This document shows positions 2,378 through 15,392 of a DNA stretch of 15,392 nucleotides, piece by piece. Position 1 is the first letter of the stretch; each line of letters opens with the position of its first letter. The position numbers and the translations under genes were made by a program. This stretch comes from Lutispora sp. (GTDB lineage: Bacteria > Bacillota > Clostridia > Lutisporales > Lutisporaceae). Location of the stretch: contig JAUQXG010000319.1 of assembly GCA_030834765.1 (NCBI GenBank), positions 1 through 15,392 on the forward strand. The letters are read 5' to 3'. The notes below the pieces were generated by a model. It ran no database searches, had not been told where the DNA came from, and saw only the letters and a list, made by a program, of their open reading frames with translations.

Positions 2378-7400
<5,023 letters not shown>

Positions 7401-7480: not shown

Positions 7481-7960
7481 TCACGATTGCACTATAATGC
7501 TTTCTATATCACAATGAATAAGCCTAATTAAATCTTTAGGCGATAATTCAATTTGATGTCCTATCTTACCTGCGCTAATAATTATTTTATCCAACTTATT
7601 GCAAGAGCTATCTAGTACAGCTTTATATTCTTTTTTCATTCCTATTGGCGAGCACCCTCCCCGAATATAACCTGTAATCTTGTTTATGTCCGCAACTTTA
7701 ATCATCTCAATAGATTTCTCGCTCACAGATCGAGCTGCCGCTTTTAAATCAAGCTCATGGGCAACAGGAATAATAAAAACATAGTATTCTCTGCTTGCCC
7801 CCTTTGTAACAAGGGTTTTATAAACCTGCTCCATGGGTTGCCTCATTTTTTGCGCAACTGAAATTCCATCAATCAGCCCATCGCTGTGATCATACGTATA
7901 GGTATGATATGAAACTCCTGCCTTATCAAGAATCCTCATGGCATTTGTTTTTAAATTCAT
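7481..7960 (-). CDS. ybaK: Cys-tRNA(Pro)/Cys-tRNA(Cys) deacylase, YbaK/EbsC family
   Basis: Small cytoplasmic editing enzyme of 159 residues, normal length for the family. YbaK proteins hydrolyse Cys-tRNA(Pro), made when prolyl-tRNA synthetase mischarges cysteine. Family features: the KTNAMRILDKAGV start (residues 4-16), the lysine in VYKTLV (Lys49, matching the functional lysine of E. coli YbaK), the HELDLKAAAR segment (68-77), and the hallmark GYIRGGCSPIGMKK (97-110). GAGGGATC lies about 10 nt before the ATG, and a good promoter lies just upstream. Downstream, 80 nt separate it from pcrA with no terminator, so a ybaK-pcrA-ligA transcript is likely. There is no obvious functional link to the helicase and ligase. 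Other activities of the YbaK fold, such as ProX or EbsC roles, are less likely given the GGCSPIG motif. Confidence 0.92.
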   Translation of the reverse strand: MNLKTNAMRILDKAGVSYHTYTYDHSDGLIDGISVAQKMRQPMEQVYKTLVTKGASREYYVFIIPVAHELDLKAAARSVSEKSIEMIKVADINKITGYIRGGCSPIGMKKEYKAVLDSSCNKLDKIIISAGKIGHQIELSPKDLIRLIHCDIESIIVQS

Positions 7961-8544: not shown

Positions 8545-8554
8545 ATGAATGACA

Positions 8555-8584
8555 AACCTTCTGATTTTATAAAATCAGAGGGTT
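8555..8584. terminator. Bidirectional hairpin between convergent units
   Basis: A 14-bp inverted repeat (arms 8555-8568 and 8571-8584, one G-T wobble) lies between the small plus-strand ORFs and the end of the minus-strand nitrogenase-like operon. The AT-rich tip would open to a 4-6 nt loop. It is followed by GTTTGTCATT on the minus side and CTATCATAT on the plus side, so the U-tract is imperfect in both directions. Its position makes a shared terminator the most likely role. Confidence 0.65.
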
Positions 8585-8630: not shown

Positions 8631-8993
8631 TCAAAAACCTTTCATCAGAATACCCTTATTCCTCTGTTCATAGCTGATCAATTTTTCGAGAGCAGAATCT
8701 ATGAAGCTGGCAAAAGTAAATGCTTTTATTTTTTTTGCATATAATGCATTTTCAGCTCTTGGGCCTATCTGACTTACCAATACTGCATTACAGTCTGCAA
8801 TCACCTCAATTGCTTTTTGCATATCATTTTCATCATGTTCCCCAAATTGACAAGGAGCGATGCCTTGGCGCAGCTCAATAAAACTAAATTTTCCACTATC
8901 ATTTACTTCAAATATCAAAAACTGTTTGCTTCTTCCAAAATGCTGATTCACTACTTTTCCATCGCTGCTGGCTACTGCAATTTTATATGCCAT
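8631..8993 (-). CDS. NifX/NifB-C-terminal-domain (dinitrogenase Fe-Mo cofactor biosynthesis) family protein
   Basis: A 120-residue cytoplasmic protein of the NifX/NafY/NifB-C family (PF02579 type), whose members bind and carry Fe-S cofactor precursors. Typical features are the start MAYKIAVASSDG, the VNQHFGRSKQFLIFEV segment (residues 15-30, with the usual HFG) and ADCNAVLVSQIGPRAENAL (67-85), a close match to the family pattern of a buried Cys, a hydrophobic strand and an IG motif. Cysteines are C48 and C68. AAAGGAG lies 5 nt before the ATG, preceded by a small hairpin. It is the last gene of the nitrogenase-like operon, 50 nt after the NifK-like gene. The NifB-like protein upstream lacks this domain, so this stand-alone copy may act as its cofactor carrier; that role is inferred. 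Confidence 0.88.
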   Translation of the reverse strand: MAYKIAVASSDGKVVNQHFGRSKQFLIFEVNDSGKFSFIELRQGIAPCQFGEHDENDMQKAIEVIADCNAVLVSQIGPRAENALYAKKIKAFTFASFIDSALEKLISYEQRNKGILMKGF

Positions 8994-9006
8994 TTTAACT
9001 CCTTTC

Positions 9007-9021
9007 TGCAGCTATGCTGCA
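9007..9021 (-). promoter_or_regulatory. Stem-loop directly upstream of the NifX-like ribosome site
   Basis: On the minus strand TGCAGC-ATA-GCTGCA forms a perfect 6-bp stem with a 3-nt loop, followed immediately by GAAAGGAGT, the ribosome site of the NifX-like gene. A related element precedes the NifB-like gene at 12759-12773. Confidence 0.5.
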
Positions 9022-9043
9022 CAAAATAAATTCAGAAAACTTT

Positions 9044-10360
9044 TTACCTGTAAGTATTAAGAACTCTATCATAGATATCTTCTATGGCTCTTAACCCGCC
9101 ATTATAGCCAGCATAACCACAGTTTAAAACAAGTCTGTACGAAACAGGGGCACTTACAATGAGAAGATCTGCTCCCAGATCATTTGCCAGATCTCTTTCC
9201 CAGCCGCTGCCGAGAATCAAAGATCTGTTCTTGCGCTCATCAGCCCTTATCTCCTCCTGTATGGCACCCCCATCCACTTCAAATACTACCTCAGCAGATC
9301 TATACTCAGATATATTCTTAAACTGCTCTTGAATAGATTGTCTGAACTCTTCAGGAGTATCATCTATAATAAACTGCTTTGCAGGAATTATTCCCAGCTC
9401 ATTAAGAAGGTATTTTGAAAATCCCAATGCATAAGATGCATCAAGGATTGTATAGAAACTCCTCGGCAGCCCATATCTGAATTCAAGCATAAAATCAGCA
9501 GTACGTTCAATATAAGCATAAAATTTTTCTTCTTCATTTTTTATAAAGGTCTCTACTAAAGTTTTTTCAAGATTACCAAAGTCGCCTACCTGTCTTAAAA
9601 ACTTAGAGGTTTCATTGCCCCCAATAGGCAGATAGGGAAAATGGAGGTAACGCGTTCCGTATTTCTCTTTAAGATGTTCCGCAATCTTGAGACCTGACCA
9701 TGCACTTATGACAATGTTGAATTCTGCATTAGGTATGGTCTTCCATTCTTCAACTCCATTGGAGCTATAACCAAAAAGTATATTTGCTTTCAGTCCTATT
9801 CCCTCAAGTACTCTCTTTATTTCTTCAAGATTCCCGTCCCAATACGGATCCTGATATGGAATTGTAGCAAATACATTCACCAGTCCTTTTGTAACAGTTC
9901 TGTCTACATTAAATTTGTCAACATATTGGTCTATGATAGCATTGACAACAACTTCATGGCTAACATAGTTATTGCTTTTAAATCCGCCGGTTTCTGCATA
10001 TACGATGGGCTTATTCTGGTGCTGGTATTCGCTGGTTACATTACCGATATCATCACCAACTATATCAGATGTACAGCCGGTTAGGACTACATACAAGTCT
10101 GCATCTATTACCTTAAATGCACCTTCGATAACTTTTTTCAGCTTTTCTTCGCCTCCAAAAACGATCTCAGATTCACTTGCATTGGTGCAAGGTATGGTAT
10201 TTCCTCCTGCGTAGCCTTCACCCTGTCCGATAAGGTTGCTTATTTTTCCGCTGCAGCCCGGTCCTGAATGCAAAATCGGTACTGCCCGTTTTATTGCTAC
10301 TACAGACTGCTGTGCACCTAGGGCACATGAGTACCTGGGCTGCTCAATATACTTCGACAC
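9044..10360 (-). CDS. NifK-like beta subunit of a nitrogenase-like reductase
   Basis: A nitrogenase component 1 family protein of 438 residues, shorter than NifK (about 510-520) and close to Mar/NifN/BchB-type subunits. It keeps the three P-cluster cysteines in NifK-like context and spacing: C12 (SCALGAQQ), C36 (HSGPGCSGK) and C96 (TGCTSDIVGDD). FGGEEKL (68-74) is the usual family motif. The start is GTG at 10358-10360, chosen because GGAGG lies 8 nt upstream, inside the end of the NifD-like gene. The two coding regions overlap by 17 nt, which predicts coupled translation of the two subunits at equal levels. A D-K heterotetramer would receive electrons from the NifH-like protein. It is not a standard NifK, and no separate NifE/NifN pair is in view. 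Confidence 0.9.
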   Translation of the reverse strand: MSKYIEQPRYSCALGAQQSVVAIKRAVPILHSGPGCSGKISNLIGQGEGYAGGNTIPCTNASESEIVFGGEEKLKKVIEGAFKVIDADLYVVLTGCTSDIVGDDIGNVTSEYQHQNKPIVYAETGGFKSNNYVSHEVVVNAIIDQYVDKFNVDRTVTKGLVNVFATIPYQDPYWDGNLEEIKRVLEGIGLKANILFGYSSNGVEEWKTIPNAEFNIVISAWSGLKIAEHLKEKYGTRYLHFPYLPIGGNETSKFLRQVGDFGNLEKTLVETFIKNEEEKFYAYIERTADFMLEFRYGLPRSFYTILDASYALGFSKYLLNELGIIPAKQFIIDDTPEEFRQSIQEQFKNISEYRSAEVVFEVDGGAIQEEIRADERKNRSLILGSGWERDLANDLGADLLIVSAPVSYRLVLNCGYAGYNGGLRAIEDIYDRVLNTYR

Positions 10361-11825
10361 TTAAATCACCTCCAAGGAAAGTAAATGGGTTTTGTTCTAG
10401 CCACCATTTGGTATAGGGCATTGAGCTATGTTTTGCCAGATTGATTACAAATTCTTTGTTATTGAGAGTTTCCAATATTCTTTCAGCATAGTTCAATACA
10501 CCCTGGTATCCAAATCCAAATTGTTCGTCCCCTATTAGAAGTGTAGGAACGCCTAGCTTTGCTCCCCAAAGTGTCATTCCTCCATGCCTTGCAATCATAA
10601 TATCAGGCCTTACTTTATTTAAAATATTAACAAGTTCATATGCCTGTTTATTGCAGACATTATAATTTTTTATATCTCCATAGGTATTGACATCATGAGC
10701 AAGGGCATCAGACTGAATGTCACCATTATCATAAATTGGATCATGATGGAAGATTGCCGCACCTCGCACTTCAAGTCCCAACTCCCTTAAAAGGGCTATA
10801 AGTGCATGACCATGGGCTGCCCCAGCCGTGATATAGGCAGTTTTACCCTTGAGCTTTTCCCGATATTCTTGAAGCTTAGGAATCACTCTCTCATGCTCAC
10901 TCTTAATAATCTCTTCCACTTCTTCCTGTCGGTTAAGGACTTTGCCAAGCTCTCTCATCCAGTTATCAGTACCAATCATTCCATAAGCTGGAGGGGATTT
11001 TATTTCTGGTACGCCATAGACCTGCTCAAGTGCTGCGCCCATATAAGTTCCTAGTGTAGGGCAAATCTGTATGGTTGCTGCAGCTTCTGATATGTGCTCA
11101 AGCTGTGCTACTGTTGAAAAAGGAACAATATAGTCAGGCTCATATCCCAATTGACCAAGAAGTTCATCAAATACATGGCTCCCCCAGAAATTGATGATAT
11201 TGACCTTATTCGTTTTCTTCTTTGGCGGCTTCACTAATTTTCTTACAATAGAATGATAAGCTGAATCAAAGCCAGTAGTCCATATTTTTGATTTAAAGCC
11301 TTCGCAAAAGCAGGCCACAACTGGTATGCTAAGCTCATGGGATAATCTTTCTGTAACACTCTCTACATCGTCTCCCACAATGCCTGATGCGCAAGATGTC
11401 GTAACAAAGATTGCATTCGGATGTACTCTATCGTAAACTCCACGAATGGTTTCTTCAAGCTTTTCTACTCCTCCGAAAATAGTATCCTGCTCTTCAATAT
11501 TCGTATTAAAATAACGACCATTGACAGCAGGCAGATTTCTTTCCATCTGCCCTACACGATACACAAAGTTATATCCAAAGAAATCCCCAGAGCACCCCAC
11601 AGGAGCATGATTGATAACTGCAGCATCCTTTATCATAGCAAGCTGGCATAAAGCATTTCCAGAACTGCATCCCATGCATTGACTGAAGCTCCTTGTACTA
11701 TCTTTTAAACAGCCTAGACGGGAATTTTTTACAAGTTCTCCTGCGGTTCCCTCAAATCCAGTAATGGACCCAAGGCGAACCTCGCGGATTTGAACTTCTG
11801 GTGCATGAAGATTAACTGTACTCAT
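10344..11825 (-). CDS. NifD-like catalytic subunit of a nitrogenase-like reductase
   Basis: A nitrogenase component 1 alpha-type protein of 493 residues. P-cluster ligands are visible as C53 (in CMGCSSGNALC, with C50 and C60 as alternatives), C78 (HAPVGCSGDFFGYN) and C145 (TTSCASGIVGDD). Their spacing of 25 and 67 residues is close to NifD C62, C88 and C154. C255 (ATIQICPTLGTYM) aligns with the NifD Cys275 that anchors the catalytic cofactor. The second anchor, NifD His442, appears to be replaced: the matching region reads GVPTLLIGDEQFGFGYQG (425-442), with no His. Together with the absence of NifEN this argues against nitrogen fixation and for a NifB-cofactor enzyme such as methylthio-alkane reductase (MarD). 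AAGGAGG lies 7 nt before the ATG. The protein family is clear; the substrate is inferred from context. Confidence 0.9.
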   Translation of the reverse strand: MSTVNLHAPEVQIREVRLGSITGFEGTAGELVKNSRLGCLKDSTRSFSQCMGCSSGNALCQLAMIKDAAVINHAPVGCSGDFFGYNFVYRVGQMERNLPAVNGRYFNTNIEEQDTIFGGVEKLEETIRGVYDRVHPNAIFVTTSCASGIVGDDVESVTERLSHELSIPVVACFCEGFKSKIWTTGFDSAYHSIVRKLVKPPKKKTNKVNIINFWGSHVFDELLGQLGYEPDYIVPFSTVAQLEHISEAAATIQICPTLGTYMGAALEQVYGVPEIKSPPAYGMIGTDNWMRELGKVLNRQEEVEEIIKSEHERVIPKLQEYREKLKGKTAYITAGAAHGHALIALLRELGLEVRGAAIFHHDPIYDNGDIQSDALAHDVNTYGDIKNYNVCNKQAYELVNILNKVRPDIMIARHGGMTLWGAKLGVPTLLIGDEQFGFGYQGVLNYAERILETLNNKEFVINLAKHSSMPYTKWWLEQNPFTFLGGDLSVEVY

Positions 11826-11854
11826 AAATGAACCTCCTTATAAAATAGACGTAA

Positions 11855-12745
11855 TTAACCATGAGAAAACGTATCAAAAACTTTGTCATACAGCAACCCA
11901 GAAAGTTCTTTACCGGATCCTGGAATTCCACAGGCATCAGCACGACAATGCTGGCAGTGTCTAAAAACAGGAAGATATTTTTCAGCCTTCTCTCTTGCAG
12001 TATTTAACTCATTGCAGTCAGGAGGGCTTAAGGTTGACATCTCATTTTGAGGTATCAATGGAATGATATTCAATATTGAAGCCCCTAATTTAGATGTCTC
12101 TCTTGATATATTCTCAATATCACCATCATTCACTCCTGGTATTAAAACCGTATTTATTTTTACACAAGCTCCTAGTTTCGCTATTTTTTCAATGCCTTGA
12201 AGCTGCGCATCTATAAGCACCTCTGCGGCCTCTTTACCTTGAAGAAGTTTTCCTTTATAATTGATATAAGAGCAGATATTGCTCTGTATCTTTGGATTTA
12301 TAGAATTAACTGTTACAGTTATTGTTCTAACTCCAGAGTTTATAACTGCTTCGGCCTTATCCGACAGCAGCAGGCCATTGGTGCTCATGCACTTGATAAG
12401 ATCGGGATACTTTTCATGTATAAGGCTAAATGCATCCATTGCATAATCTGATGCAAGCGTATCTCCAGGTCCGGCTATACCCACCACAGTTATTTCCGGA
12501 CAAAGCTCAAGTGCTTTTTCCACATATTCAAGTGCTTCAGCAGGGGTTATTACTCCTGCTGAAACCCCAGGCCTGTTTTCATATTTATTAAAGCCTCTTT
12601 TGCAGAATTTACATTGTATATTGCACGAAGGGCTTATAGGCAGATGCACTCTCCCATATTTGGTATTAGCTTCACCACTTAGACAGGGATGTCTTTTCGT
12701 CAGATGGGCAAAGTTGCCATCTTGCAAATTATTACGCTTTGTCAT
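11855..12745 (-). CDS. NifB-like radical SAM protein for cofactor biosynthesis
   Basis: A radical SAM protein of 296 residues. NifB fuses two Fe4S4 clusters with SAM-derived carbon and sulfur to make NifB-co, the precursor of nitrogenase-type cofactors. NifB features are clear: HPCLS near the N-terminus (C21), SAM-cluster motif CNIQCKFC (C41, C45, C48) followed by RPGVS (58-62), GIAGPGDTLA, STNGL, and near the C-terminus HCQHCRADACGIPG, which corresponds to the HCRQCRADA motif of NifB. The length is that of NifB proteins without a C-terminal NifX domain; a stand-alone NifX-like protein is encoded at the end of the operon. AAAGGAG lies 5 nt before the ATG, preceded by a stem-loop. It lies between metQ and the NifD-like gene and is expected to supply their cofactor. 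By analogy it would be MarB. Confidence 0.92.
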   Translation of the reverse strand: MTKRNNLQDGNFAHLTKRHPCLSGEANTKYGRVHLPISPSCNIQCKFCKRGFNKYENRPGVSAGVITPAEALEYVEKALELCPEITVVGIAGPGDTLASDYAMDAFSLIHEKYPDLIKCMSTNGLLLSDKAEAVINSGVRTITVTVNSINPKIQSNICSYINYKGKLLQGKEAAEVLIDAQLQGIEKIAKLGACVKINTVLIPGVNDGDIENISRETSKLGASILNIIPLIPQNEMSTLSPPDCNELNTAREKAEKYLPVFRHCQHCRADACGIPGSGKELSGLLYDKVFDTFSHG

Positions 12746-12758
12746 TTAGACTCCTTTC

Positions 12759-12773
12759 TACAGCTACACTGCA
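12759..12773 (-). promoter_or_regulatory. Stem-loop directly upstream of the NifB-like ribosome site
   Basis: On the minus strand TGCAGT-GTA-GCTGTA forms a 6-bp stem with two G-U pairs, followed immediately by GAAAGGAGT. It is the sister of the element at 9007-9021: the base changes between the two keep pairing in the stem. Confidence 0.45.
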
Positions 12774-12799
12774 TCACTTTTTTTAACTAATACTCTCTT

Positions 12800-13621
12800 T
12801 TAAAATGCTGGTACAACAGCTACACCATATTTATCTTCTATAAATTTTTTCACATCATCGCTAAGAAGCGCATTTTTAAGTTTTATAAATTCAGGACGAT
12901 TCTCTTCTCCTTTTCTCACTACAACGATATTGCCGTAAGGGGATTTAGCATCCTCTCTGAATAAAGCAGTCTCTGGATCTATTTTTGCTTCTAATACTCT
13001 GTTAGTATTGATGATAGCACCATCTACTTCTGGAAGATTTCTTACCAGCAATCCGGAGTCCACTTCTATGAATTCCAGTTTCTTTGGATTATCAATGATA
13101 TCCTTAGTGGTAGCTTTAAAATCTGTAAGCCCATCTTTTAGCTTAATAAGTCCCTTGCTCTGGAGCAGTACCAACATGCGGTATTCATTGGAAGGGTCAT
13201 TGGTAATCAATATTTTTGATCCGTCTTTCAGCTCATCTATAGACTTTATTTTTGTAGAATATAAAGCTATGGGCTCTACATGAACATTGGCTAATACCGC
13301 ATAGTCAAATTTTATTTCACCGGCTACTGATTGAAGGTATGGTACATGTTGAAAATAATTTGCATCTACCTGCTTATCTCTAACTGCTTCGTTTTGCTGT
13401 TCTACTCCGGTTACGATCTCTAGCTTCACACCTTCCTTTGCCAATGTAGGTTTTATATGCTCCAGTATTTCTGCATGGGGTACAAGATCAGCTGCGACTC
13501 TTATGGTCACTTCTTTTGGTGCATCCGTTGCAGAAGCAACTGGTGAACTTTTGGTGCTGCATCCGCCCAGTACTAATATCACTGATAAAATTGAGCTTAA
13601 CAATATTCCTTTTATTTTCAT
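12800..13621 (-). CDS. metQ: MetQ-like (NlpA family) substrate-binding lipoprotein
   Basis: Membrane-anchored binding protein of 273 residues for the adjacent ABC importer. The signal peptide ends in the lipobox LGGC (lipidated Cys21), followed by a Ser/Ala/Pro linker. NlpA/MetQ features: VPHAEILEHI (48-57), ANYFQHVPYL (87-96, where the family has ANxFQHxPYL), NDPSN (141-145), and DGAIINTN (200-207), which in MetQ contributes Asn contacts to methionine. An oddity is NDPSNEYR, where most MetQ proteins have a small Gly before the Arg; this could reshape the ligand pocket. The ribosome site is weak (AGGG). It is encoded 31 nt after metI and 54 nt before the NifB-like gene, inside the nitrogenase-like operon. 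The ligand may be methionine or another methylthio compound; the family assignment is firm and the ligand is not. Confidence 0.88.
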   Translation of the reverse strand: MKIKGILLSSILSVILVLGGCSTKSSPVASATDAPKEVTIRVAADLVPHAEILEHIKPTLAKEGVKLEIVTGVEQQNEAVRDKQVDANYFQHVPYLQSVAGEIKFDYAVLANVHVEPIALYSTKIKSIDELKDGSKILITNDPSNEYRMLVLLQSKGLIKLKDGLTDFKATTKDIIDNPKKLEFIEVDSGLLVRNLPEVDGAIINTNRVLEAKIDPETALFREDAKSPYGNIVVVRKGEENRPEFIKLKNALLSDDVKKFIEDKYGVAVVPAF

Positions 13622-13652
13622 TTATAAACCCTGCTATAATTTTGTTTTTTAA

Positions 13653-14321
13653 TTATTCATATTTATACCTTTTTCTATTGATATACTTTGCTAAGGAGTC
13701 ACCAAAATACTGTATTCCCTGCACCAATAATATGATTAATACTACTGTGCCAATCAGTACATCTGTTCTATATCTTTGATAACCGAATCTTATGGCGTAA
13801 CTTCCCAATCCGCCTGCTCCTGTCGCACCTGCTATCGCAGTTAACCCAATGATTGATATCAGCCCTAATGTCAATCCTCTTATCAAGGAAGGCAGTGCCT
13901 CTGGGATAATCACCTTTGTCACGATCTGAAATTGATTTGCTCCCATGGAAAGAGCAGCTTCAATTTTCCCTTTGTCAACTTCTCTGAGAGAATTTTCAAT
14001 AATTCTTGCGAGATATGGAGCTGCACCTACGGAAAGTGGAACTATCGTTGCTGTGGTTCCCAATGAGGTGCCCATAATAAGCCTTGTAAATGGTATCAAT
14101 ATTACAATAAGAATGATTTCTGGTACAGAACGAATGATATTAATGATTGTTCCTAAAGTCTTATTCACTTTGATATGGGACCATATATTTCCCTTATCTG
14201 TTATTGCCATAATAATGCCAAGTGGAAATCCTAAAATAAAAGAAACTATGGCAGTTGCTGCCATCATATATATTGTCTGGCCCAGTCCAACTAGCAGCAA
14301 TTCTATCAAATCATCGCTCAT
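13653..14321 (-). CDS. metI: MetI-like ABC importer permease
   Basis: Inner-membrane permease of 222 residues, normal length for MetI, with five likely membrane helices (about residues 7-40, 58-78, 88-108, 146-168 and 184-206). The coupling motif EAALSMGA (121-128) with the following [12 protein letters not shown] is the EAA loop that contacts the ATPase. The start codon overlaps the metN stop as ATGA (14318-14321), and GGAGG lies 9 nt upstream, so translation is coupled to metN. With MetN and MetQ it would form a MetN2-MetI2-MetQ importer for methionine or a related thioether. Its position between reductase genes ties this transport to the nitrogenase-like enzyme. Confidence 0.9.
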
Positions 14322-15097
14322 ATCCCATCACCTCCCTGGTAACAGCCATTCTCTTGAAAATTGGATAGGATCTCTATGAACTTCTTTAGGGTCACGCTTT
14401 TGGGATTGATAAACAAATCATTGGTAGCCCCCTTTTCTATTATTTCACCCTGTTCTATCACTGCAGTATTCTTGCATATATACTTGATCACATCCAGTTC
14501 ATGGGTTATGAGAACAATGGTAATATTGAGTTTCTCGTTTATATCCTTTAGAAGTTCAAGTATAGAGTATGTGGTCAAGGGGTCCAGGGCCGATGTAGCT
14601 TCATCGCTAAGCAAGATATCTGGCTTATTTGCAAGAGCTCTTGCTATGCCCACTCTTTGTTTCTGTCCACCACTCAGTTGAGAAGGATATGCATTCCTTT
14701 TGTCTGTAAGCTCCACCAAATCTAAGATTTCTTCCACTCTTTCCTTGATTTCTTTCTTTGGAACCTTATCAAGCTCCAAAGGAAATCCAACATTATCAAA
14801 TACTGTCCTTGAATCTAAAAGATTGAATTGTTGAAATATCATACCTACTTTTTTTCTTGTTTTATTAAGGGACTTCTTATCCAGAGAATTTATATCCAGA
14901 CCTTCTATGGTAATCTTACCCGTATCTGGCTCCTCAAGACGGTTTAAGCATCTTATCAAAGTAGATTTGCCAGCACCACTAAAGCCTATTATTCCATATA
15001 TATCTCCTTTTTCTATGGAGAGATTGATATCCTTTAGGGCAGTGACTTTGCCATAGGGCGTATGATACACCTTGCTCAGATTGGATATATCTATCAT
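14318..15097 (-). CDS. metN: MetN-like ABC importer ATPase lacking the C-terminal NIL domain
   Basis: ATPase subunit of the importer. I start it at ATG 15095-15097 (259 residues, [13 protein letters not shown], a typical MetN beginning), with AGAAGG about 8 nt upstream; a GTG three codons earlier (15106) with its own weaker site is possible. Counting from that GTG, motifs are Walker [10 protein letters not shown] (41-49), the Q-loop FQQFNLLD, signature LSGGQKQR, Walker [13 protein letters not shown], and the H-loop ITHE. Canonical MetN is about 340 residues, because a C-terminal ACT-like NIL domain binds methionine and shuts the transporter down (transinhibition). That domain is missing here, so uptake is predicted not to be feedback-inhibited. 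The stop overlaps metI as ATGA; the NifH-like gene ends 24 nt upstream. Confidence 0.9.
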
Positions 15098-15121
15098 TCT
15101 TTTCACCTTCTTTCATCCTTT

Positions 15122-15392
15122 TTAAATACTGCTTCTGATATCCCTCACTTCGCCTGTTTCAAGAGCAAGAAGGCTATCTGCCCATTTAGATGCCCAGTCT
15201 CGTAATTCTTTTGTATCAAGAGGAGCTGGTACTGTGGAATCTGTATGTTCTGCTATCTTTTTTGCAAGTCTCCTGTAAATATCAGCTTGTTTTGAATCAG
15301 GTGCCGCTTCAATAGTTGTTTTGCCCTGAAGCTCGCTTTGCGTTACAGTTACTGAACGGGGAACATATTCCATAATTCTTGTTTCAGTCTGC
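15122..15392 (-). CDS. NifH-like nitrogenase reductase, C-terminal part (runs off right edge)
   Basis: The C-terminal 89 residues of a NifH/BchL-superfamily iron protein; the open frame continues past 15392, so the ATG at 15371-15373 is internal. The diagnostic segment is MEYVPRSVTVTQSELQGKTT, the conserved NifH stretch just before the C-terminal tail, followed by IEAAPDSKQADIYRRLAKKI. The tail after it (PAPLDTKELRDWASKWADSL, ending ETGEVRDIRSSI) differs from that of NifH used for nitrogen fixation. NifH proteins hydrolyse ATP and pass electrons from a shared Fe4S4 cluster to the D-K partner. The Walker motif and cluster cysteines lie outside the window. It is the upstream gene of the operon as visible here, so the main promoter must lie beyond the right edge. 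Confidence 0.88.
   Translation of the reverse strand, partial: QTETRIMEYVPRSVTVTQSELQGKTTIEAAPDSKQADIYRRLAKKIAEHTDSTVPAPLDTKELRDWASKWADSLLALETGEVRDIRSSI

Follow-up and report, generated by a model that had tools for sequence, protein, structure and literature searches.

What does a nitrogenase-like operon do when the genes of a methionine-type importer stand in its middle? The question is raised by a 15,392-nt stretch of a Lutispora sp. draft genome (GCA_030834765.1, contig JAUQXG010000319.1; hereafter the window), in which open reading frame and family-profile annotation gives a single minus-strand operon with the gene order H-metN-metI-metQ-B-D-K-X, the nif-like genes being called nfl here. 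The genes and order put forward in an earlier note on this DNA were confirmed by the profiles. The explanation that we find best, and consider rather likely from the sequence evidence, is a reductase system of group IV-A that resembles the methylthio-alkane reductase (Mar) of Rhodospirillum rubrum, has its own importer and is expressed when S-adenosylmethionine (SAM), and hence methionine, is low. Such a system would probably cut sulfur from organic compounds rather than fix nitrogen.

The riboswitch leader and the host SAM regulon

The H gene is split between two contigs: its last part is in the window, and it begins on a neighbouring contig of the same draft, C426. In alignments the first piece stops and the second starts at residue 203 of intact relatives; the two contigs therefore abut. 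On C426 a SAM-I riboswitch (RF00162) occupies positions 1205-1314 of locus L001, 169 nt before the H start codon, and matches positions 1-108 of the 108-position model with 93.2 bits against a threshold of 44.4 (E 9.6e-21). The window itself gave no Rfam match, the leader sitting on C426. The riboswitch is preceded by a promoter (TTGACA-17-TATAAT, from 1131), and a terminator hairpin at 1350-1381 folds alone at -16.1 kcal/mol. When the 5' strand of P1 and the 3' half of the terminator were removed, an antiterminator formed in folding; the fold of 1190-1482 has a z-score of -3.99. Because this leader stands before H, the nfl operon is assigned to the predicted SAM/methionine regulon of the host, and a role under methionine limitation, as the earlier note had suggested, gains support. 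The riboswitch on the nfl operon itself is an addition of the present analysis.

Seven SAM-I riboswitches (S-boxes), the nfl leader included, were found in the host. The six others adjoin genes for a metA-like homoserine acyltransferase, metK, a metH-like homocysteine methyltransferase, metY, a metQ fragment, and a tRNA_edit gene with a second nifX-like gene. Relatives were collected as 57 loci with six 8-residue patterns from the window D protein, a scan that is therefore biased towards close relatives; many of these loci are cut by contig ends and some come from near-identical strains. Two plasmid loci bring the set to 59, and 36 of the 59 were scanned for S-boxes. Three of the 36 other loci scanned carry S-boxes at nfl or metNIQ genes (L014 with two, L018 and L023); the S-boxes of L009 and L022 do not lead nfl genes.

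The host array with the second nifX-like gene (G000:C315; L160, L165) reads S-box, tRNA_edit, nifX-like gene (PF02579), S-box and metY, is preceded by the end of a PALP (cysteine-synthase-type) gene, and puts a nifX-like gene inside the host SAM regulon. A tRNA_edit gene (PF04073) is also found beside the nfl operon, on the minus strand at window positions 7481-7960, as another member of the family is beside the C315 nifX-like gene.

Phylogeny and cluster-binding residues of NflD and NflK

The best solved matches of NflD and NflK are R. rubrum MarD and MarK (Table 1), the best NifD match to NflD having an E value of 2.2e-36. A second D tree was built from 57 rows, after two long-branch Bch rows and one duplicate row of the first tree had been dropped. 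Three distinct groups were resolved: the window clade (25 rows, 100/99), Mar (7 rows, 100/100) and Nif/Anf (12 rows, 100/100). Window D falls outside the R. rubrum MarD clade and also outside the NifD/AnfD rows, far from NifD and NifE. The phylogeny had been named in the earlier note as one of the results that could overturn its reading; the tree excludes NifD and NifE. The window and Mar clades are neighbours (97/94, with two further rows), and their direct sisterhood is weak (85/51). The window clade includes Heliophilum NflD1, recognised by its position and neighbours, and the Endomicrobium proavitum alpha subunit P0122, which is 59% identical to window D and has the hallmark residues of the clade except for Thr at position 74. 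The E. proavitum genome was not among the two (family) and three (class) genomes found around the Elusimicrobiota relative. Window-type D and true Mar D coexist in Heliophilum, Sporomusa silvacetica, Clostridium algoriphilum, the L018 genome and an Elusimicrobiota genome. By its place in the tree, NflD is a member of a separate clade, group IV-A (Nfa), and not MarDK itself.

Residues were compared in 59 clade rows, comprising window D and relatives at 51% identity or more whose matches span more than half of D (several from close strains), with Mar assignments taken from PMC12552129. Cys73, Trp195, Phe199, the cofactor ligand Cys270, His375, Arg428 and His429 (MarD numbering) are kept in all 59 rows, as are the P-cluster-type cysteines 66, 91 and 158 of D, whose mapping is our own; Gln74 is kept in 56. 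The P-cluster-type cysteines 12, 36 and 96 of NflK are kept in 70 of 70 rows. The positions of NifD Gln191 and His195 (MarD 195 and 199) are Trp and Phe in NflD. Alignment thus shows that NflD and NflK carry the Mar-type residues for a P-cluster and a putative [Fe8S9C]-type cluster, and the invariance of the Mar-type ligands across the clade, the Endomicrobium enzyme included, is new here. His194, which in Mar flanks the proposed substrate site (PMC12552129) and is retained by the Mar-clade D proteins in the alignment, is kept in none of the 59 rows (Ile 46, Val 8, Leu 3, Met 1, Gly 1; Ile in the window). Of the Mar substrate-site trio the clade therefore retains Trp195 and His375 and not His194. 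The Mar-like reading of the earlier note holds in so far as the nearest solved relatives are MarDK and the Mar-type ligands are invariant; it does not extend to identity with MarDK.

Several assignments were rejected: NifDK or NifEN by the D tree and residues, MarDK as the family label by the placement of window D in another clade, with true Mar beside that clade in several genomes, and isethionate reductase by its differing ligands. Divergent D paralogs were seen in two loci (L143, 2861-4384; L007, 2481-4001); in these the Mar-type Arg-His loop has become Arg-Asp or Arg-Glu, with Asp or Glu also in place of His375, and their cluster is possibly held differently. An nfl island of about 60 kb in Sporomusa silvacetica (L143-L146; G024:C105, ~22.8-83.4 kb) carries D-like and K-like genes of several clades, seven of each kind.

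Operon layout, NflB and the linked importer

The genes of the operon are separated by 15-54 nt or overlap (metN/metI by 4 nt, D/K by 17 nt). A promoter and terminator scan within the operon gave no excess over shuffles and no terminator 3' of X; a palindrome at about 8554-8584, past the end of X, was spotted by eye. In the host draft (3.16 Mb, 564 contigs, 86.85% complete) nflD and nflK are the sole genes with PF00148, and NifEN is therefore absent as far as the draft lets one see. This agrees with the earlier note, which had seen no NifEN and had named a nifEN pair just outside the window as a result that would speak against it; the draft holds none. NflX is a probable cluster carrier. None of 21 other genomes of the same family that were examined has an NflD match, and the operon is therefore patchy, by transfer or loss.

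Table 1. Genes of the nfl operon, with positions in the window unless another contig is named
Gene	Product or description	Position	Strand	Basis
nflX	Small NifX-like protein	8631-8993	minus	PF02579, 73.7 bits
nflK	Beta subunit	9044-10360	minus	PF00148; best solved match 9d9u_C, E 4e-132
nflD	Group IV-A alpha subunit, predicted MarD-type cofactor ligands	10344-11825	minus	PF00148; 9fmg_A, E 3.1e-143; residues; tree
nflB	NifB-like radical SAM protein without fused NifX domain	11855-12745	minus	TIGR01290, 260 bits (cut-off 343.65)
metQ	MetQ-like lipoprotein	12800-13621	minus	PF03180, 250.5 bits; tree; pocket residues
metI	MetI-like permease	13653-14321	minus	NF008049, 212 bits (equal to its cut-off)
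metN	MetN-like ABC ATPase, 262 aa	14318-15106	minus	TIGR02314, 345.5 bits over 1-242 of 343 (model cut-off 499.7)
nflH, last 89 codons	NifH-like reductase	15122-15391	minus	PF00142; cut by contig end
nflH, first 204 aa	NifH-like reductase	C426, L001 1483-2094		PF00142; same draft genome

The cluster ligands of NifB have been assigned as C29, H42, E65, C128, C273 and C276, and C62 as a strictly conserved residue that serves as the fourth ligand of the radical SAM cluster and acts as a plug (PMC9692996). In our own motif-based mapping, window B retains the radical SAM motif and the equivalents of all six ligands. The C62-type cysteine is present in five of 33 B rows (L007 twice, L017, L021 and L044), and this change in B is new here. 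A NifB-co-type product, as the earlier note proposed, remains likely for NflB from the motif and K-cluster ligands; the one conserved cysteine is missing, and the gating of NflB may differ from that of NifB.

The metNIQ genes lie near D in 22 of the 57 loci, counting L058 with its very divergent MetQ, in varied orders (NIQ-DK, BXHDK-NIQ, DKHB-NIQ, XBH-NIQ-DK, DKH-NIQ-B). The gap between D and MetQ is 6 to 5434 nt in the 21 linked loci other than L058. A rough and generous binomial for 21 of 57 linked loci gives ~1e-21, the loci not being mutually independent. In a tree of 45 MetQs, which left out the L058 protein, 22 linked MetQs formed one clade (99/98) separate from the rest; L010_13 and the second L015 MetQ (in another operon, ~8 kb from D), both labelled linked, grouped with the unlinked ones. 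Thirty of the MetQ genome matches had been fetched as loci. A survey of the neighbourhood had been proposed in the earlier note, and the recurrent linkage and the MetQ clade of its own rule out a mere accident of position; the exact placement between H and B, as in the window, recurs in one of the 22 linked loci (L064).

Methionine in NmMetQ is bound by a pocket of R156, N213, N238, Y81, F98, H100 and Y103, in which Tyr81 packs on the thioether (PMC6739813). Window MetQ keeps all of these except Y81, which is Val. Tyr81 is replaced in all 22 linked MetQs (Asp 17, Glu 2, Val 2 with the window included, Ser 1; the position is ambiguous by a one-residue gap in five rows, L011, L013, L017, L020 and L029), and the same position is Tyr in 17 and Ser in six of the 23 other MetQs. 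All 22 linked rows retain the residues that bind the amino and carboxyl groups. Judged by these residues, the linked MetQ is shown to be a paralog of the methionine-binding protein, with the predicted amino and carboxylate site retained and the side-chain pocket altered. This clade with its changed pocket is new here. No NIL domain was among the Pfam matches of window MetN; 17 of the 22 linked MetNs are 258-267 aa long, and an unlinked Butyrivibrio MetN is 337 aa long with NIL present. At least two MetQ matches, some of them partial or weak, were found in 18 of the 20 genomes with a linked locus, and the host has another complete metQ and a metQ fragment elsewhere. To us the linked metNIQ seems to encode an importer dedicated to a compound that resembles methionine. 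One may speculate that the acidic side-chain pocket, which is common in the clade and absent from the window, would be well suited to a sulfonium or to an additional amino group. In L058, from a metagenome-assembled genome of Ruminococcus, the MetQ-like gene directly before nflD (2123-2947) has lost nearly all canonical residues of the methionine pocket.

Neighbours were counted on the 59 loci. Recurrent clusters were annotated by their representatives only, and rare nitrogen-related neighbours may therefore have been missed. A PF01053 cluster (the MetY family of O-acetylhomoserine sulfhydrylase and its kin) occurs in 34 loci, and 25 loci have a distinctive subtype of this cluster, to which belongs the Heliophilum sulfhydrylase gene that stops 9 nt short of nflD1. 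LysR genes are found in 20 loci, and the sulfonate/nitrate-type ATP-binding cassette (ABC) transporter clusters c10, c11 and c19 in 18, 17 and 6. The Elusimicrobiota relative has a nitrate/taurine-type permease and ATPase upstream of D.

Proposed function of the operon and competing explanations

Under the preferred explanation, low SAM would let transcription read through the riboswitch leader, and MetNIQ would import an amino-acid-like organosulfur compound. B and X would make and deliver an L-type ([Fe8S9C]-type) cluster, and H would hand ATP-driven electrons to DK, which would break a C-S bond to release sulfide or methanethiol. A MetY-type enzyme could then join the sulfide or methanethiol to activated homoserine, giving homocysteine or methionine. 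The genes, the leader and the cluster ligands are read directly from the sequence; the substrate, the product and the flow between the steps are what we infer, including the idea that what the importer takes up is the substrate of the reductase.

The nearest known system, R. rubrum MarBHDK (group IV-C), likewise has a B, H, D and K set without NifEN and supplies sulfur for methionine, and its MarD residues Cys270, His375 and Arg428-His429 and three K cysteines are kept in nfl. It differs in that NflD forms a separate clade with 45% identity to MarD and Ile in place of His194, that the nfl B protein lacks the C62-type cysteine, and that nfl has the linked metNIQ and the riboswitch. If MetNIQ were a plain, co-regulated methionine importer, DK could, like Mar, use membrane-permeant thioethers, for example (2-methylthio)ethanol or dimethyl sulfide. 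This would fit the Mar-type active site, the retained MetQ contacts to the amino and carboxyl groups of methionine, and the riboswitch, which would suit any methionine importer. The MetNIQ methionine importer itself is alike in gene set and in the amino- and carboxylate-binding residues, and unlike in the separate clade of the linked MetQs, their replaced Tyr81 and the lack of NIL in window MetN. As these differences are joined by another complete metQ in the host, by a His194 that is never kept and by true Mar co-occurring in several genomes, we consider a plain importer unlikely.

A group IV-A nitrogenase that fixes N2 without NifEN has been claimed for E. proavitum and predicted for Heliophilum NflD1 (PMC9147875), both of them members of the window D clade, and a Roseiflexus nitrogenase is reported to make FeMo-co without NifEN (PMC11573651). 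The described NfaHDK set (E. proavitum, Paenibacillus riograndensis, Heliophilum NflDK1) is regarded as nitrogenase, unlike the window operon with its metNIQ and SAM-I riboswitch. Nitrogen fixation is hard to reconcile with this leader, with Trp and Phe at MarD 195 and 199 where the aligned NifD rows have Gln and His, with the report that Mar, which has the same ligands, is unable to reduce N2 (PMC12552129), and with the recurrent neighbours (MetY, metNIQ and sulfonate-type importers); we consider it highly improbable here. The same low probability applies to a sulfite-releasing reductase that acts on sulfonates or on other oxidised compounds of sulfur. The isethionate reductase IsrBHDK of Rhodobacter capsulatus pairs a nitrogenase-like HDK with a radical SAM protein and has an ABC transporter that takes up a sulfur compound, IsrD has been placed near MarD and NfaD (PMC11423573), and the sulfonate/nitrate-type transporters recur, one of them in the Elusimicrobiota relative. 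However, IsrD lacks two of the three P-cluster-type cysteines and both cofactor ligands, of which NflD keeps all three cysteines and the Mar-type equivalents, the likeness of IsrB, an unrelated type of B, to NifB, MarB and NfaB is limited to the radical SAM motif (PMC11423573), and the importer in the window is of the MetQ type.

Several observations weigh against a Mar-like system with its own importer. E. proavitum has its D in the same clade and is reported to fix N2 with a functional nitrogenase (PMC11257099, PMC8399215; see also PMC9147875). An nfl-adjacent S-box is absent in 33 of the 36 other loci scanned, and 35 of the 57 loci are without linked metNIQ, several of these being truncated at a contig end. 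Four host PF01053 genes were inspected, the ordinary S-box metY included, and none of them was seen to be of the distinctive MetY subtype. The C62-type cysteine is missing in 28 of the 33 B rows, the window among them, and the product of B is less sure for this reason.

A sulfur role for IV-A genes is not new: Kountz and Balskus reported that MarHDK-like genes of group IV-A, and also methionine transporters, are encoded within or close to type I mlp clusters, and they proposed methionine salvage (PMC10418091). The window shares the link to sulfur and methionine and has no mlp cluster; the host draft has two URO-D genes, a possible mlp link. Listings of an earlier preprint version of that work carry the phrases "SAM riboswitch" and "methionine ABC transporter", neither of which was found in the accessible text of version 4. 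The available part of PMC5670726 makes no connection between a SAM riboswitch and nitrogenase genes, and no such operon is described among the literature matches listed for SAM riboswitch with nitrogenase, for nitrogenase-like with metNIQ or MetQ, and for nfaD or nfaH.

A wider proposal, which we rate as an even call, is that the whole IV-A clade, with the E. proavitum "nitrogenase" and Heliophilum, consists of organosulfur reductases for methionine supply. Their [Fe8S9C]-type cluster would be held by the Mar-type Arg-His loop and the substrate would be set by the partner importer, a modified-pocket MetNIQ in many Clostridia and a sulfonate/nitrate-type transporter elsewhere; the linked MetQ would represent a class of new specificity, recognising an amino acid with a thioether or sulfonium group that is not methionine. 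Group IV-A is cited as a functional nitrogenase on the strength of one organism. With a clade member in a predicted SAM/methionine regulon and with Mar-type ligation, that claim is directly testable. Alongside Mar, the clade would form a second branch of likely L-cluster C-S reductases, found in some of the same genomes, and the dedicated importer offers a handle on the identity of the substrate. If the action is Mar-like, methanethiol and small hydrocarbons could be among the products in soil, rumen, termite gut and similar anoxic habitats.

Apart from the operon, the minus strand of the window encodes a UvrD/PcrA-type helicase (4392-7400) with an in-frame intein, PF14890 lying at residues 289-611 between the N- and C-terminal UvrD domains.

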